Part shown: piece after piece, positions 15,524 to 25,258 of the stretch
Numbering within the stretch: position 1 is the stretch's first letter
Layout of the letters: each line of letters starts with the position of its first letter
Made by a program: the position numbers and the translations under genes
Notes under the pieces: model-generated
What the model was told of the DNA's origin: nothing
The model's database searches: none
Seen by the model: only the letters and a program-made list of their open reading frames with translations
NCBI RefSeq assembly: GCF_021729075.1
Contig: NZ_JAJSAQ010000002.1
Span: 124,001 to 188,000 of the forward strand
Length of the DNA: 64,000 nucleotides
Reading direction: 5' to 3'
DNA from: Microbulbifer guangxiensis
Lineage (GTDB): Bacteria; Pseudomonadota; Gammaproteobacteria; Pseudomonadales; Cellvibrionaceae

Positions 15524-15922
15524 TCATTCCGCGGAGGCCGATACTGCCTCCACCTGCCGCCACTCTGCCTCGGACAGCGGGCGATAACCCCGCGGGAACG
15601 GCCACCCATACCCCCAGCGAAACCGGGTTGGCAGGTAGGGAGTACCACCAACCCGCACGCCTGCGAGCATCAGCGCAGCGATTTCCGGTTCACCCACTTC
15701 GGCGACACACTGCTGCAGAGCCCGGTCAGCCTGCAGCCGCTCTTCATCTGTTCCGCCCTTCCAGTAGGCATAATCATGTGACGTACAGCAATCCAGCCAA
15801 AGTGCCTGTTGAGCCAGCGTGCCATCCGGAAAGGCACTGCAGCCATCTGAGGTAAACGGGGCAATCGCCTCGGCAAATATTGGACTGGCCAGCAGCAAAA
15901 CGGGAAGTACGGCATATCTCAC
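15524..15922 (-). CDS. Small exported phospholipase-A2-like protein
   Basis: 132 aa with a signal peptide (cleavage after IFAEA). The core is DGCSAFPDG followed by LDCCTSHDYAYWKGGTD: Cys45-Cys46-x-x-His49-Asp50 is the arrangement of the secretory phospholipase A2 active site (CCxxHDxC). A second acidic residue that could complete the dyad is Asp66 in QADRALQQC, and Cys28/Cys72 could form a disulfide. It is shorter than classical PLA2 and lacks an obvious calcium loop, so lipase activity is an inference. It lies 12 bases downstream of the SDR-like gene and may be co-transcribed with it. Confidence 0.7.
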   Translation of the reverse strand: MRYAVLPVLLLASPIFAEAIAPFTSDGCSAFPDGTLAQQALWLDCCTSHDYAYWKGGTDEERLQADRALQQCVAEVGEPEIAALMLAGVRVGGTPYLPTRFRWGYGWPFPRGYRPLSEAEWRQVEAVSASAE

Positions 15923-15934
15923 GGCTTGGGTTCC

Positions 15935-16690
15935 TTACAGGGGCCGCAACGGAGCGGCGGGCCAGCCACCGGCAAATTTGATGATGGTACCGGTATGGAA
16001 AGAGCCTTTCATATTGGCCAGATACCGCACCAGTTCACCTACCTCCTGCGGCTCACCCAACCGGCCAGCCGGCACCACCTCGCGAATGAACGCGCTACCG
16101 ACCGGATCATCAATGAACTTGGCTTTGGGAAAGTAGGCCTCGCTATACAGATAGTTCGGGGCAATGGCATTGACCGGGATACCCAGCGGCGCCAGTTCGA
16201 TACTCAGTGACTTGACCAGGGCATTGGCTCCAGCCCGCGCCATATCCGGAATGGCACCACCGGGCAGAGGTAACTCGGTACGGCAGGATGTCACCAGAAT
16301 GACATTACCGGAACCCTGGGCCTTCAAACGGGGAACTGCCGCCTGCATGAGCCGAAACGGTGCCACCATTACATTTTCGATAGTCGCGTACAGGTCATCG
16401 ATACTTGCGTCCTCCACCGGCGTGTGGATTGCGGGGAATGTATCATTACTGATCAGAACATCCAGCTTGCCATAGGTCCCCCACACATACTCCATGAACT
16501 CCTCAGGTTCAGTGATTGCCACAGGGTCTGTACCGGGGCACTGCCGAGAATAAGCCTGAAGTTGGCCGAGATCAGAGAAAGTCGGATCCTGAGCGATGAC
16601 CCGATAGCTGTCTTCCAACAGTACCTGCACTGCGGGAGGCCCGACAAAATCCAGGGCATTGGTTACCAGTGCGACTTTTTCATCCATCAA
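15935..16690 (-). CDS. Halohydrin-dehalogenase-like SDR protein, catalytic Tyr replaced by Pro
   Basis: 251-aa Rossmann-fold protein of the SDR superfamily. Its closest recognisable relatives are halohydrin dehalogenases (HheA/B/C), which turn vicinal haloalcohols into epoxides. The nucleotide-binding glycines of ordinary SDRs are replaced by Thr10-x4-Phe15-x-Gly17, the dehalogenase fingerprint, and VLISNDTF, MARAGANAL and IAPNYLYSE resemble HheC closely. The second fingerprint is Ser-x12-Tyr-x3-Arg; here Ser135 and Arg152 are in register but position 148 is Pro. Ordinary SDR (TGxxxGxG, YxxxK) motifs are also missing, so it may be inactive or do different chemistry. Start at the first ATG, behind GGGGAG. 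Confidence 0.85.
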   Translation of the reverse strand: MMDEKVALVTNALDFVGPPAVQVLLEDSYRVIAQDPTFSDLGQLQAYSRQCPGTDPVAITEPEEFMEYVWGTYGKLDVLISNDTFPAIHTPVEDASIDDLYATIENVMVAPFRLMQAAVPRLKAQGSGNVILVTSCRTELPLPGGAIPDMARAGANALVKSLSIELAPLGIPVNAIAPNYLYSEAYFPKAKFIDDPVGSAFIREVVPAGRLGEPQEVGELVRYLANMKGSFHTGTIIKFAGGWPAAPLRPL

Positions 16691-17186
16691 AAAAACTCCC
16701 CACCCCGGAGCAGTTTCCGCAATTGCATGCGTGTTTCATAAATCATCAGCTTGCCACATGTTACAGAAGACCGCGCTTGTGAGTGTTTCGCGCCTGACTG
16801 TACGCATGCCGCCCGACCAGGATTGCTGACGACATCATCGGCCGTCGAATACCAGCAGTTGACCGCAGCAACGCCAAGAAGAGCATGGATATGCTGGCTT
16901 CCTCGACAGGGGCTCTGATTAATCCACAACCAGCAGATTACCGTAGTTACTTTGGTGAAATAAGGCCTGAAGAGTGGTCCATCACCTCCCGCTCCAACTC
17001 GATGTAGCCACCAATGCGGTAAACCTGATATTCCTTGCCAGGGTTATCACTCCATTGTCGGATCCAGGATTCCGGACAGAGCGGATAGGGGAGCGTGCAA
17101 AAACCAGTATTCGACTTGTACACTCACTACATAATTTATAAAGGCGGCCGTCTGAAGCGGCGTATTCAAGATACACGGAATATGGC
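16691..17186. other. Intergenic region, 496 bp, no convincing gene
   Basis: Lies between the divergent dehalogenase-like and hydrolase genes. Reading frames here are short and show no family motif or usable ribosome site. An AT-rich stretch around 17116-17142 (TTGTAC, then TATAAA after 15 bases) is a weak promoter candidate for the hydrolase-kynU unit. Nothing else was recognised. Confidence 0.5.
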
Positions 17187-18098
17187 ATGGCAATACGACT
17201 GAACACCCATCAGCTGGCCGCGACCTGCTTACTGGCAACCTTGCTGCTGTCACCGGGAGCTGCTGCTCAACCAGGCACTTCAGCCCCCGTCTATGCTCCG
17301 GTCTCTGCCCAGCCCACCTACAGCGAGGCCACCGCGCTGGCCTATCAGCACTTTGATCATAAAATCAGCTACGGCAATGGCCCGAGCCAGTATGGTCTCC
17401 TTTGGCTCCCCAAAAACGAACCGACCGGAAAGAAACCGATGGTGGTGATGATACACGGGGGCTGCTGGCTCGAAGCCTACGACATCAGCCATACTTACCC
17501 TCTGGCAACAGCGCTCGCACATGAGGGCTACCCGGTGTGGAACCTGGAGTACCGCCGCACGGGCGCCGGTGGCGGAAGCTGGCCGGACAGCTACGAGGAC
17601 ATCCAGGCCGGGCTACAGAAAATTTCCAGCCTTTCAGAGTTCGGCCTTGTGCCCCGGGAAGTGGTATTGGTCGGACATTCCGCCGGAGGCCACCTGGCAC
17701 TGCTCGCAGCTGCCGACTGGCCGAAACTTTTCCCCGAGGGCATCCCCCACGCCTCTGCCATCGGCATGGCGGCGATCACCGATGTCGAGCACTATGCTCG
17801 GGGTGAGAATAGTTGCCAGCAGGCAACCACGCGTTTCATGGGCGGCACGCCCGACACAAGACCGGACGCCTACGCGGCGGCCAACCCGAATAGTCATACC
17901 ATTTCCATCCCCGTGACTCTGCTTCATGGTGATCAGGATCCCATCGTTCCCTTGAGCCAACTGGAGCTTTTCAATGGAACATACATTCAGAAGCAGGTAG
18001 TGCGTGGCGCGGCTCACTTCGACTGGATTCACCCCGGTACGCCGGCCTTCCAAACCCTGCTGCGGCAACTGGAAACAGGAACTTCAGGCAAGGGTTGA
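17187..18098 (+). CDS. Exported alpha/beta hydrolase, kynurenine-formamidase-like
   Basis: 303-aa esterase-fold protein with an N-terminal signal peptide (LLATLLLSPGAAAQ). The oxyanion-hole motif HGGCW is at 90-94, the nucleophile elbow GHSAGG with Ser165, the acid is Asp249 or Asp251 in HGDQDPIVP, and the base His277 in GAAHFDW. HGG plus GHSAGG is typical of arylformamidase/BD-FAE hydrolases. The gene lies 27 bp upstream of kynureninase in the same direction, which suggests N-formylkynurenine hydrolysis. The signal peptide is odd, because kynurenine formation is normally cytoplasmic; a different ester substrate is possible. Confidence 0.8.
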   Translation: MAIRLNTHQLAATCLLATLLLSPGAAAQPGTSAPVYAPVSAQPTYSEATALAYQHFDHKISYGNGPSQYGLLWLPKNEPTGKKPMVVMIHGGCWLEAYDISHTYPLATALAHEGYPVWNLEYRRTGAGGGSWPDSYEDIQAGLQKISSLSEFGLVPREVVLVGHSAGGHLALLAAADWPKLFPEGIPHASAIGMAAITDVEHYARGENSCQQATTRFMGGTPDTRPDAYAAANPNSHTISIPVTLLHGDQDPIVPLSQLELFNGTYIQKQVVRGAAHFDWIHPGTPAFQTLLRQLETGTSGKG

Positions 18099-18125
18099 AT
18101 AACAGCCCGACCGACGGAACCACTT

Positions 18126-19424
18126 ATGCGCTTGATCGATGTATTGATGCAACACGATGCTACCGGCCACTCTCCTCGGGTATCCGTGGATATGCTCCCC
18201 GATGCGGAAACACTGGATGCGGGAGATCCGCTGCGGGGCAAACGCACTGAATTCCAGTTACCTGCGGGAAGCATCTACCTGGACGGTAACTCCCTCGGCC
18301 CCATGCCGCTTGCCGCAGCCGAACGTGCCAAAGCAGTGGTTGGGCAGCAATGGGGTCAGGACCTGATTACCAGCTGGAACAAGCACGCCTGGATCGACCT
18401 GCCAGAATCCGTAGGCGAGAAGATCGCCCCCTTACTGGGTGCAGCACCGGGACAGGTGATCTGCTGTGACTCGATCTCCGTCAACCTGTTCAAGCTGCTG
18501 TGCGCCGCGCTGGCAATGAATCCGGGCCGCCACAAGGTACTGTCCCAGCAGGACAACTTTCCCACAGATCTCTACGTTTCCCAGGGTCTCCAGCAACTTC
18601 TGGGTGGGGAGCACTGTGAACTGGTCTCCGTAGAGGAAGATGAAATCGAGGCCGCGCTCTCAGAGGAGATAGCCGTCCTTCTGCTTACCCAGGTGAACTT
18701 CCGCAGCGGCTATGCCCACGATATTGAGCGGCTGACCAGGTTGGCCCACAAAAAAGGGATACTGGTCATCTGGGACCTGGCACACAGCACGGGAGTGATG
18801 CCACTGGAGCTGGATCACTGGCAAGTCGACTTCGCCGTTGGCTGTGGCTACAAATACCTGAACGGTGGGCCCGGGGCCCCGGCTTTCGTTTATGCCGCCA
18901 GACGCCACCATGAGAAATTGCAGCAGCCCCTGGCCGGCTGGATGGGCCATCACAACCCTTTCACATTCCTTCCCGAATACCAGCCTGCCAGTGGCATCAA
19001 ACGATTTCTCGTGGGAACACCCCCTATTCTCTCCATGAGTGTGCTCGATGCAGCGATGTCGGTCTTCGCAGATACAGATATTGCACAAATCCGGGCCAAA
19101 GCACTTGGACTGGCCGACTTCTTTGCCGTACGCGTCCTCACAAACCCGGCCCTGAGTTCGCTCGAACTGGTCACCCCGAAAGAGCACAAGCAACGAGGAT
19201 GCCAACTGGCGTTCACCCATGAACATGCCTATGCAATCTGCCAGGCACTCATCTCCGACGGCGTGATCGCCGACTTCCGCGCACCAAGCATCCTGCGCTT
19301 TGGGTTTTCGCCACTTTACCTCAGTTATAGGGATATTGAGATCGCCCTCGAGCGCTTGGCCAAAATCATGGAGTCAAAGCGCTACCTGGATGAGCGATTC
19401 AGTCAAAAAAATAAGGTCACATGA
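18126..19424 (+). CDS. kynU: Kynureninase
   Basis: PLP enzyme (432 aa) cleaving kynurenine to anthranilate and alanine, or 3-hydroxykynurenine to 3-hydroxyanthranilate. Family landmarks are LDAGDPLRG near the start, IYLDGNSLGPMP, the cofactor Asp in IWDLAHSTG, and the Schiff-base Lys243 in GCGYKYLNGGPGAPAF. The ATG at 18126 gives a slightly long N-terminus; the next in-frame ATG precedes LPDAETLDAGDP. It follows the formamidase-like hydrolase and probably shares its transcript. No tryptophan dioxygenase gene is present in the window, so the entry step must be elsewhere. Confidence 0.94.
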   Translation: MRLIDVLMQHDATGHSPRVSVDMLPDAETLDAGDPLRGKRTEFQLPAGSIYLDGNSLGPMPLAAAERAKAVVGQQWGQDLITSWNKHAWIDLPESVGEKIAPLLGAAPGQVICCDSISVNLFKLLCAALAMNPGRHKVLSQQDNFPTDLYVSQGLQQLLGGEHCELVSVEEDEIEAALSEEIAVLLLTQVNFRSGYAHDIERLTRLAHKKGILVIWDLAHSTGVMPLELDHWQVDFAVGCGYKYLNGGPGAPAFVYAARRHHEKLQQPLAGWMGHHNPFTFLPEYQPASGIKRFLVGTPPILSMSVLDAAMSVFADTDIAQIRAKALGLADFFAVRVLTNPALSSLELVTPKEHKQRGCQLAFTHEHAYAICQALISDGVIADFRAPSILRFGFSPLYLSYRDIEIALERLAKIMESKRYLDERFSQKNKVT

Positions 19425-22802: not shown

Positions 22803-22823
22803 GGACCTGCTTAACGCAGGTCC
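22803..22823. terminator. Hairpin between convergent genes, overlapping the stop of the DUF305 gene
   Basis: GGACCTGC-TTAAC-GCAGGTCC is an exact 8-bp stem with a five-base loop. The loop and one arm include the stop codon and last codons of the minus-strand gene. There is no T-run on either side, so it may mark transcript 3' ends rather than act as a classical terminator. Confidence 0.4.
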
Positions 22824-25258
22824 CTGGCAATCTCCTTCAGGGATTCGGTAAATGCCCTGGTCATTTCCTCCACTTCATCATTCTCGTTGTTCACGTTAGC
22901 CAGTGAAGCGAGTATGACCAGCCTTCCGGCCACCTTCTCGTCCTTGGCGCGCTGGGCCAGCAGTGAACCCGAGCTATCCAGCGCCTGATACATCTCCGCC
23001 GCCATGGGCTCGGGTATCGCCCCCCGGCGTGTCAGTTGATCCAGATAGGCTTTGGCCACTACCGGCTTTGACGGCCAACTGACGCGAAACTGTTGCTGCG
23101 GGTTAAAGACATCGCCCATATCCGCCACTTCTGCCGCGCCCACCTCATTGGCGGTCAGGTACTGGCTCGGCTGAAGAGTAAAGACATCAATGCCACGAGC
23201 GATCTCGGTGCCGTAGATCTTGCCGTTGTACCAGTAGACTGACCAGTAACCGCCTAATGTCATGTGTTCTTCGTCGATTGGGCCCCGGTCGAAGTAACCG
23301 ATCTCCACCGGGTTGGCGGAATCAGTGAAATCTATCAGCGACAGGCCGCCCTGATACCAGGCCTGTACAAAAACATCACGGCCAGGTACCGGCACGATGG
23401 AGCCGTTGTGCGCCACACAGTTTTCCTGGTCGCTCTGGGGTGCCGACAGTTTGTAGTGACTCTTGAACTCGAGCTTGCCATCAACGATGTCATAAATGGC
23501 ATTAGCGCCCCAGTTCAGGGGGTCCTGAGCCCGACAACGGGGACGACCACCACCGCCCCACTCATCTGTAAAGATCACCTTGGTGCCATCATTATTGAAC
23601 GTAGCAGAGTGCCAGTAGGCGAATCCGCTGTCCTTCACCGCGTCAATGCGTTTAGGTTTGAGGGGATCGGAGATATCGAACAGGATGCCATTGCCCGAGC
23701 AGGCTCCGGCTGCAATCTTGCGCTCAGGAAATACGGTAATATCGTGACAGTGATCAGTACGGTAGGTTTCCTGAGTATCATCACCATGGTCTCCGCCACG
23801 CCAGAGCCCTGCCATAGCTCCACTCTCTGTATCTGCGAAGACTGCGGGACTATCGACTATGCGCGACTTTGAGGGATCACCCACCGGAATTTCAATGACG
23901 TCGATACGAAATAGCGCAGTACGGCTATCACCCGGTGTGTTGTCCACACAGGAAGGCATTTCCTCTTCTTCGCGAATGGAGCCGATACCCGAGTTATAGA
24001 CAATGATCTTCCCATCCTTGCCAGGTCCAGAAACCACAGAGTGGGTGTGGGATCCACGGCATGTCTGCACTGCCCCTACCTGCACAGGTCGCTGCAAGTC
24101 ACTGATGTCGAATATCCGCAAGCCCCTGAAACGTTCAGGGCTGGCATCCTCGCTCACACCCTGCAAGCCGCAATCAAGTCGAGCCCGTGTTTGCTCGACG
24201 GACATGATCAACAAGTCACCGACTATAGATACATCACCTTGTCCACCCGGGCAAACCACCGAACTGATATGCTTTGGCATGCTCGCATTCTGGAGTTTGT
24301 AGATATTGAAGCCGTGGTAGCTACCGGCAACCATCACGTCATCAAAGAAAGCAATATCTGTATTGGCAAAATCCATAAATGGATAGCGCGTCCACTCCTC
24401 TTTCTTTTTTTCTTTTTCCTCTTCGGACTCACCTTCAACTTTCTTTTCTTCGCCCTTTTCCGGCATTTCAGGCGGTAACCCGGCTATATTCTCTGGATCG
24501 TAGAAGCCCGCTGGCTTTGGCAGCAACCCTTCATGATTCAGGTTGAATATTGCCTCTCCTGCATCATGGTAGCCGGCGGCCAGTCCCGCACGAGGATCAT
24601 CTGACAACCCTGCGAGCAATTTGCTCATCCGCTCTACTTCGGCCGTCTGATCGTTGGTAATATCTGAGGTAAACTCGAATAAAACAGGATCATAAGCAGA
24701 ACCAGGTTTTTCCTGAAGATCCTCGACCATCTTAACTGCGCCCTCGTGATGGGCGATCATCAGCTCCAAAAACATACGATCAAAGTCCTTGGCTTTGGAG
24801 CCTGCCAGGGCTTTCATCTGTTCCGGCGTCGCCATTCCGGCCATCTTGTGGTCAGTCTGCATGTGGTGATGATGTTTCGGATCGGGAACTGTTTCACCCC
24901 GCTCCTCCAACCACTCCTGCATGAACTGGATTTCATCTTCCTGTGATGCGTCAATTCGACCGGCCAGATCAACGATCTCAGGGTTATTTGTCCGCTCCCG
25001 GACAAGCTCTGCCATCTGCAGGGCCTGATGATGGTGGGGGATCATATCCTGCATGAACCGAACGTCGTATGGCGAATAGCTGGAAACCGCTATCTTGATC
25101 GCATCCTCCGCGCTCAGCTCCTTTACAGGCTCCCCCGGAGAACCGGGGTGTATTATTTTCACTTCATCAGCTCGGGCAGAGACAGGCCCGGTTACAAGGC
25201 AGGTGACAATGGCCGTTTTGGCGATAAAGAGACAGGTAAATCCCCGAGACTCGATCAT
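22811..25258 (-). CDS. Exported tandem-DUF305 / LVIVD beta-propeller fusion protein
   Basis: 815 aa with a signal peptide (cleavage near VSARA). Residues about 50-240 contain two DUF305-type helical units, one with MIPHHHQALQMAEL (His75-77), the other with MIAHHEGAVKMVEDL (His170-171), plus a His cluster (HHHH near 130). DUF305 proteins are four-helix, ferritin-like and often occur in copper contexts. A Glu/Lys-rich linker (about 265-285) leads to a propeller region (about 290-745) with LVIVD-like blades such as GLRIFDISD and GILFDISDPLKP. The C-terminal helical 70 residues are unassigned. Likely periplasmic; metal binding is inference. GGAGGG precedes the start. Confidence 0.8.
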   Translation of the reverse strand: MIESRGFTCLFIAKTAIVTCLVTGPVSARADEVKIIHPGSPGEPVKELSAEDAIKIAVSSYSPYDVRFMQDMIPHHHQALQMAELVRERTNNPEIVDLAGRIDASQEDEIQFMQEWLEERGETVPDPKHHHHMQTDHKMAGMATPEQMKALAGSKAKDFDRMFLELMIAHHEGAVKMVEDLQEKPGSAYDPVLFEFTSDITNDQTAEVERMSKLLAGLSDDPRAGLAAGYHDAGEAIFNLNHEGLLPKPAGFYDPENIAGLPPEMPEKGEEKKVEGESEEEKEKKKEEWTRYPFMDFANTDIAFFDDVMVAGSYHGFNIYKLQNASMPKHISSVVCPGGQGDVSIVGDLLIMSVEQTRARLDCGLQGVSEDASPERFRGLRIFDISDLQRPVQVGAVQTCRGSHTHSVVSGPGKDGKIIVYNSGIGSIREEEEMPSCVDNTPGDSRTALFRIDVIEIPVGDPSKSRIVDSPAVFADTESGAMAGLWRGGDHGDDTQETYRTDHCHDITVFPERKIAAGACSGNGILFDISDPLKPKRIDAVKDSGFAYWHSATFNNDGTKVIFTDEWGGGGRPRCRAQDPLNWGANAIYDIVDGKLEFKSHYKLSAPQSDQENCVAHNGSIVPVPGRDVFVQAWYQGGLSLIDFTDSANPVEIGYFDRGPIDEEHMTLGGYWSVYWYNGKIYGTEIARGIDVFTLQPSQYLTANEVGAAEVADMGDVFNPQQQFRVSWPSKPVVAKAYLDQLTRRGAIPEPMAAEMYQALDSSGSLLAQRAKDEKVAGRLVILASLANVNNENDEVEEMTRAFTESLKEIARDLR

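Follow-up and report, generated by a model that had tools for sequence, protein, structure and literature searches.

The window, i.e., the whole stretch of 64,000 nucleotides of Microbulbifer guangxiensis that was analysed, carries at positions 15935..16690 of the reverse strand a gene resembling those of halohydrin dehalogenases (HHDHs). Its product of about 27 kDa has 251 residues if translation starts at the TTG at 16690 and 250 if it starts at the ATG at 16687. The ATG, one codon inside the TTG, seems the likelier start, because the orthologues start at this Met or close to it and a Shine-Dalgarno-like GGGGAG (16696..16701, same strand) lies 8 nt before it. Residue numbers follow the earlier note on this DNA, which counted the TTG start as 1. 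That note had described a diverged HHDH homologue whose catalytic Tyr is replaced by Pro, and the residues it named were all recovered from the open reading frame. The first HHDH motif, T10-x4-F15-x-G17 (16640..16663; this and the following features are on the reverse strand), is kept exactly, with T10, F15 and G17 present. It contributes the nucleophile pocket in HHDHs and belongs to their definition (PMC11976700, in its accessible part). Ser135 (16286..16288) and Arg152 (16235..16237), the equivalents of Ser132 and Arg149 of HheC, are in register, and position 148, the place of the catalytic Tyr, is Pro both by alignment and by a clear CCG codon (16247..16249). The NYLYSE- and ARAGA-type segments said to follow HheC do match its NYLHSE and ARAGA. 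The ordinary SDR motifs are lacking, as had been claimed: the first two glycines of TGxxxGxG are N11 and F15 (giving T-N-x3-F-x-G), and PxxxR stands for YxxxK. To these features our alignments add Arg137 (16280..16282), which takes the place that Thr134 has in HheC, next to the catalytic Ser; a remodelled loop 137-149 (16244..16282) with the clade-specific residues R137, T138, P141, G144, G145, P148 and D149; Asp149 itself (16244..16246); a substrate-side loop 179-192 (16115..16156; NYLYSEAYFPKAKF); and a C-terminal tail 244-251 bearing Arg249-Pro250 (15938..15961).

A small, secreted-looking ORF (15524-15922, reverse strand) starts 12 nt past the stop of the HHDH-like gene. It contains a DGCS...CC..HDYAYW segment, and we take it to resemble phospholipase A2. 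A similar small ORF directly follows the gene in the Microbulbifer genome G035 (L060:7754-8164), Pfam matched neither of the two at the limits used, and no such ORF of at least 90 aa was called after the gene in G012. Beyond the small ORF, the window has genes for a catalase and a PrxQ-like peroxiredoxin. Elsewhere in the window, an alpha/beta hydrolase gene of the BD-FAE type directly precedes a kynureninase gene (17187-19424, forward strand), and the two possibly form a kynurenine formamidase and kynureninase pair. In an 815-aa ORF at 22811-25258 (reverse strand), an HHHQALQMA region at the N-terminus is accompanied by a long, seemingly repetitive C-terminal part; the product is presumably DUF305-like.

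We compared all ORFs of 20 loci, setting the HHDH-like gene aside. Neighbours recur as Microbulbifer synteny and, in part, among loci of the Burkholderiaceae type, where the close pair L074 and L075 have an upstream ORF in common. In L072, genes for a zinc-type dehydrogenase and a TetR-like protein are at distances of 71 nt and 1.1 kb from the HHDH-like gene; in L075 they are 3-4 kb away. The two are divergently arranged (L072:4256-5930 and L075:9806-11485; 88% identical for the dehydrogenase and 80% for the TetR-like protein), in L072 immediately upstream of the HHDH-like gene. LysR-like genes occur 0.17 to 1.7 kb from it in L072, L074 and L076. Across wider groups, common families alone match, at 22-39% identity and 0.04 to 7 kb from the gene. 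No operon that would name a substrate was found in the 20 loci, and Pfam assigned ten neighbour ORFs (nine outside Microbulbifer and one from G035) to unrelated families or to none.

A phmmer search of the PDB with the window protein returned HHDHs or a dehalogenase as the ten best sequences, with E-values from 1.1e-40 (5kwe) to 9.8e-36 (4ixt), followed by three G-type HHDH chains (3.6e-27 to 1.7e-23). The best chain named as an SDR had an E-value of 1.6e-22, and HheG (5o30, a "putative oxidoreductase" by its PDB name) ranked lower, at 1.1e-18, among ordinary SDRs. With a profile of the clade described below, the identical ten sequences led, HheA now being first. The window protein is 35% identical to HheC, 34% to HheA, and 33% to 6a41. 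An AlphaFold2 model built from an alignment of 11 rows had a mean pLDDT of 73 and a pTM of 0.77. Its Foldseek ranks 1-15 were all HHDHs or the 6a41 dehalogenase (1.1e-18 to 6.7e-17), with FabG (2.1e-14) after them and the G-type chains lower, which gives the model an HHDH fold with weak loops: residues 137-143, 179-195, 197-211, and 228-251 all have a pLDDT below 50. Because these include the active-site loops, the model is silent on the geometry of Arg137, Asp149, Arg152, and Arg249. Pfam and NCBIfam matched generic SDR families only, with no NCBIfam cut-off reached among the matches listed, and Pfam found no domain beyond a single SDR-like one. Viral contigs gave 38 pattern matches and no relatives. 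Among plasmids, a single match reached E <= 1e-24; it has 34% identity and is annotated as a haloalcohol dehalogenase.

The earlier note had proposed collecting orthologues to see whether Pro148 is conserved. We obtained 18 further full-length orthologues, 45-79% identical, with Pro148 in 17 and Ala in one (L056). None has the Tyr that would have pointed to a local mutation or a sequence error, and the 19 rows of this core clade, the window's included, thus have Pro in 18 and Ala in one. They come from Microbulbifer (G012, G035), Desulfobacterales including Desulfosarcina widdelii, a Porticoccaceae MAG, Xenophilus, Paraburkholderia, and MAGs labelled Alphaproteobacteria and Anaerolineae, as well as from searches of the class of D. 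widdelii and the family of Paraburkholderia BCC1886. Each locus was counted once (L002 is the L021 locus, and L034-L042 repeat loci of the pattern scan). That scan had PGGAIPDM among its six patterns, so its matches are biased to Pro. Nine clade rows came from pattern-free searches with the whole protein (L002, L003, L047, L048, L052-L056), and they have Pro in eight, Ala in one and Tyr in none. Ser135, Arg137, Asp149, and Arg152 are invariant in the 19 core rows, and nine coding sequences use all four Pro codons (CCG, CCC, CCT, CCA) at position 148. Judged from these sequences, Pro148 is conserved by descent. Of seven pairs, two are saturated; the other five gave dN/dS ratios of 0.048-0.126, which are rough since dS exceeds 1.3 in four of them. 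These ratios show purifying selection on the clade.

The distribution of the gene is patchy. It was found in 3 of the 37 genomes of the genus, the window's own one counted, and, at around 70% identity or more, in 6 of the 291 genomes of the class of D. widdelii. The latter set has nine matching genomes in total, the other three matching at 30-35%, one of them with the Tyr-type L051. The family of Paraburkholderia BCC1886 yielded six full-length copies and a fragmentary one in 349 genomes. Among 369 genomes drawn across the class, E <= 1e-24 was reached by the own genome and a single broken copy. Among 398 drawn across the phylum, E <= 1e-40 was reached by the own genome and by one match of 33% identity, at the same place as the Tyr-type L107. 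Partial or frame-broken copies were seen in a Desulfobacteraceae MAG (L031:5001-5156) and in a genome of the window's class (L032/L033), where the fragment L032 shows R137, P148, and D149. A genome in the family of Paraburkholderia BCC1886 has two identically reading 3' parts (L057 and L058). The presence of these partial copies suggests repeated loss of the gene.

The MAGs labelled Alphaproteobacteria and Anaerolineae carry closely similar loci (L027 and L028, also L066 and L067; dN 0.043), and one of the two MAGs may be misbinned. Both also have a canonical, Tyr-bearing HHDH relative (L043 and L044), 41% identical to the window protein. Hence, both types can live in one genome.

To the replacement at position 148, the comparison with Tyr-bearing relatives adds a second change. 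Among the 54 HHDH-type rows, Arg137 is found in all 20 non-Tyr rows and in none of the 34 Tyr rows, which have Ala (16), Ser (6), Gly (5), Thr (4), or Val (3) at this place; not counted were L090 (a Tyr row, but partial), the fragments L031, L032/L033, and L057/L058, and the ordinary SDR rows, six of which formed the outgroup of the tree. All 34 Tyr rows have Ser135 and Arg152 along with Tyr148. Position 137 (Ser+2) presumably resembles the carboxylate-binding His of 3-hydroxybutyrate dehydrogenase; our literature search found nothing on this likeness. In HheC, Thr134 hydrogen-bonds the catalytic Ser132 (PMC4989007, accessible part). Nineteen positions are conserved in at least 18 of the 19 core rows yet rare in Tyr rows: seven lie in the Ser-to-Arg segment (137-149), four in 181-185, and three in the tail (244, 249, 250), the remaining five being 20, 129, 192, 198, and 208. 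Residues T10, G17, N179, S135, R152, Y186, and P188 are common to the clade and the Tyr rows. The Arg249-Pro250 tail occurs in 18 of the 19 core rows and is missing in L029 and L082. Among the 30 genomic Tyr rows, 26 stop one residue past GGW and four run three residues longer, with Arg-Pro there in none. In HheC, the C-terminal extension brings Trp249 into the active site of the opposing monomer (PMC4989007, accessible part); the match of Arg249 to this Trp249 means equal numbering past the last aligned residue (245 in both), the tail itself being unaligned.

One row, L082 (genome G1103), has Arg137 and Pro148 but Thr149 and no tail, and is a possible intermediate by its residues. It was the sole match at E <= 1e-50 among nine genomes of its family. 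The class of G430 (289 genomes) contributed 29 new loci, of which L082 alone has Pro148, the other 28 having Tyr148 (six weaker matches were left out of the 29).

To place the clade, we built a maximum-likelihood tree of 60 rows, leaving out columns 137, 138, 148, and 149. The named HHDHs in it were HheA, two HheC-type chains, and 6a41, and it held no named chain of the HheB, D, E, F, or G types. The 19 rows with Pro or Ala at 148 followed by Asp form one clade among Tyr-bearing HHDHs with a support of 100/99, obtained also in another tree. Nearest to it are the Tyr rows L079-L081 and L082, then HheA and HheC; several terminal branches are long, including those of HheA and L082. In the free tree, L082 lies just outside the group of L079-L081 and the clade, so two changes would be needed. 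A constraint uniting the clade with L082 gave a log-likelihood 4.30 higher than that of the free tree (p-AU 0.593), and a single origin of the R137/Pro148 state therefore fits. The gain of Arg137 and the loss of Tyr are thus one event, or at most two, which indicates linkage and not repeated selection. A constraint uniting the clade with six ordinary SDRs was rejected (p-AU 0.0209), so the phylogeny does not place the protein inside ordinary SDRs, a placement that the earlier note had said would refute its reading.

The class of these proteins depends on the definition used. HHDHs are defined and mined by T-X4-F/Y-X-G plus S-X12-Y-X3-R (PMC4989007 and PMC11976700, accessible parts). The first motif is present in 19 of 19 core rows. 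The second is absent, with Ser and Arg in all 19 and Tyr in none (Pro 18, Ala 1). By the motif definition the clade is thus not an HHDH, and by descent and fold, as far as homology and the trees place it, it is a derived HHDH branch set apart from NAD(P)-dependent SDRs. Because the second motif demands Tyr, motif-based mining of HHDHs misses the clade.

Together, these comparisons show an HHDH descent in which T10, F/Y15, G17, N179, Ser135, and Arg152 were kept and Tyr148 was lost. Beyond what the earlier note had described, they show a gain of Arg137 linked to the loss of Tyr in the whole non-Tyr group and, in the core clade only, of Asp149, the remodelled loop, and the Arg249-bearing tail. 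Such a pattern probably reflects a changed reaction or the binding of a charged molecule, over a simple sequencing error. Our best explanation, held with somewhat less than even confidence, is a derived clade of the HHDH lineage with a rewired, cofactor-free, cationic pocket for an anionic ligand or substrate. The pocket would work without NAD(P). Arg137, beside Ser135 and Arg152 and possibly joined by the Arg249 of another subunit, would form a cationic site, the delivery of Arg249 being modelled on the tail of HheC that brings Trp249. This site could hold a carboxylate- or other anion-bearing molecule and stabilise an oxyanion. The classical chemistry of the Tyr base, deprotonation of a haloalcohol, has probably been lost or much reduced, since proton abstraction is expected to be weak when Tyr is absent. 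The likeliest reaction would be ring opening of an acidic epoxide by a nucleophile, or a similar addition or elimination, with Arg as an electrophilic helper that stabilises the oxyanion from epoxide opening, or with a group of the substrate replacing Tyr. In its narrowest form, a Tyr-less enzyme of the SDR fold using arginines beside Ser and from the tail of the neighbouring subunit on acidic epoxides, halo-acids, or similar anions, the proposal is doubtful.

The alternative that survives best is that catalysis went with Tyr148 and the protein was kept as a binder of small anions or metabolites, a sensor, or a scaffold. We consider such a pseudoenzyme, already raised in the earlier note, a real possibility. 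The residue lost is one that no Tyr row has changed and the nucleophile-pocket residues are kept, as would suit a binder, and the conservation pattern would be equally expected of a non-catalytic binding protein. Against this, Ser135 and Arg152 vary no more than they do in the Tyr-bearing rows, and new invariant polar residues have appeared at the catalytic centre; these gains (Arg137, Asp149, loop, and tail) speak for a rebuilt site over a merely dead one, as judged from conservation. That no neighbour gene recurs beside it across phyla, and that truncated or frame-broken copies in some genomes suggest a dispensable gene, fits the loss of catalysis; the single SDR-like domain, with nothing further in Pfam, speaks against a pseudoenzyme. 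Ordinary HHDH activity, in which the base would be some other residue or a water positioned by Asp149, Arg152, or Ser135, seems improbable. It would agree with the intact first motif, the Ser and Arg of the second, and the invariant Asp149 of the core clade, but position 149 is Thr in the outlier L082, most of the 137-149 loop differs, and the Tyr that abstracts the proton in HHDHs (PMC4989007, accessible part) is present in every one of the 34 Tyr rows. An ordinary NAD(P)-dependent SDR, to which the generic Pfam and NCBIfam matches would point if HHDHs were not expected to match likewise, is excluded within these samples by the absence of both TGxxxGxG and YxxxK and the rejected grouping with six SDRs, and a private mutation or sequence error by the 18 orthologues with Pro or Ala and the four Pro codons in nine rows, which makes either of them highly improbable.

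An active clade would show how an HHDH relative can function without Tyr, and would extend the epoxide or halogen chemistry of marine and sulfate-reducing bacteria by one branch. An inactive one would be an HHDH pseudoenzyme that binds anions, is conserved in nature, and has kept the residues of its nucleophile pocket. What HHDHs themselves do in nature is still described as unsettled (PMC4989007, accessible part). Among the titles and abstract openings listed by our literature search, no Tyr-less HHDH or HHDH pseudoenzyme is described; most subscription papers fall outside this coverage, and one may be in print. Arginine-based catalysis without Tyr, if true, would be a solution without description for HHDHs in the literature covered.

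Among known systems, the HheC type (1pwx, 5kwe, 4ixt) resembles the window protein in the first motif, the Ser132 and Arg149 equivalents, the NYLxSE loop, ARAGA, and the possession of a C-terminal tail, at 34-35% identity. It differs in that Tyr145, Thr134, and Trp249 of HheC are Pro148, Arg137, and Arg249 (the last by numbering) here, with the loop between Ser and Tyr rebuilt. The HheA type (4z9f, 1zmo) and 6a41 have the fold, the first motif, and the best Foldseek matches in common with it, at 33-34% identity, but Tyr is retained in 4z9f and 6a41, where position 137 is Val or Ala. The nearest Tyr relatives, L079-L081 from the class of G430, are 43% identical and have an NFLYSETYYPR-type loop in common with the clade, but their catalytic segment reads S-A-S-P...Y148 and the tail is absent. 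L082, 41% identical, combines R137 with P148 as the clade does, and departs from it by its Thr149 and the missing tail. Outside the HHDHs, basil eugenol synthase is an SDR relative active without the catalytic Tyr, in which a substrate hydroxyl lies near the place of the Tyr hydroxyl (PMC1991597, accessible part). By its description it stands apart from the clade, since it keeps the SDR Lys and is reductive, whereas the clade has Arg at this place and no cofactor motif.
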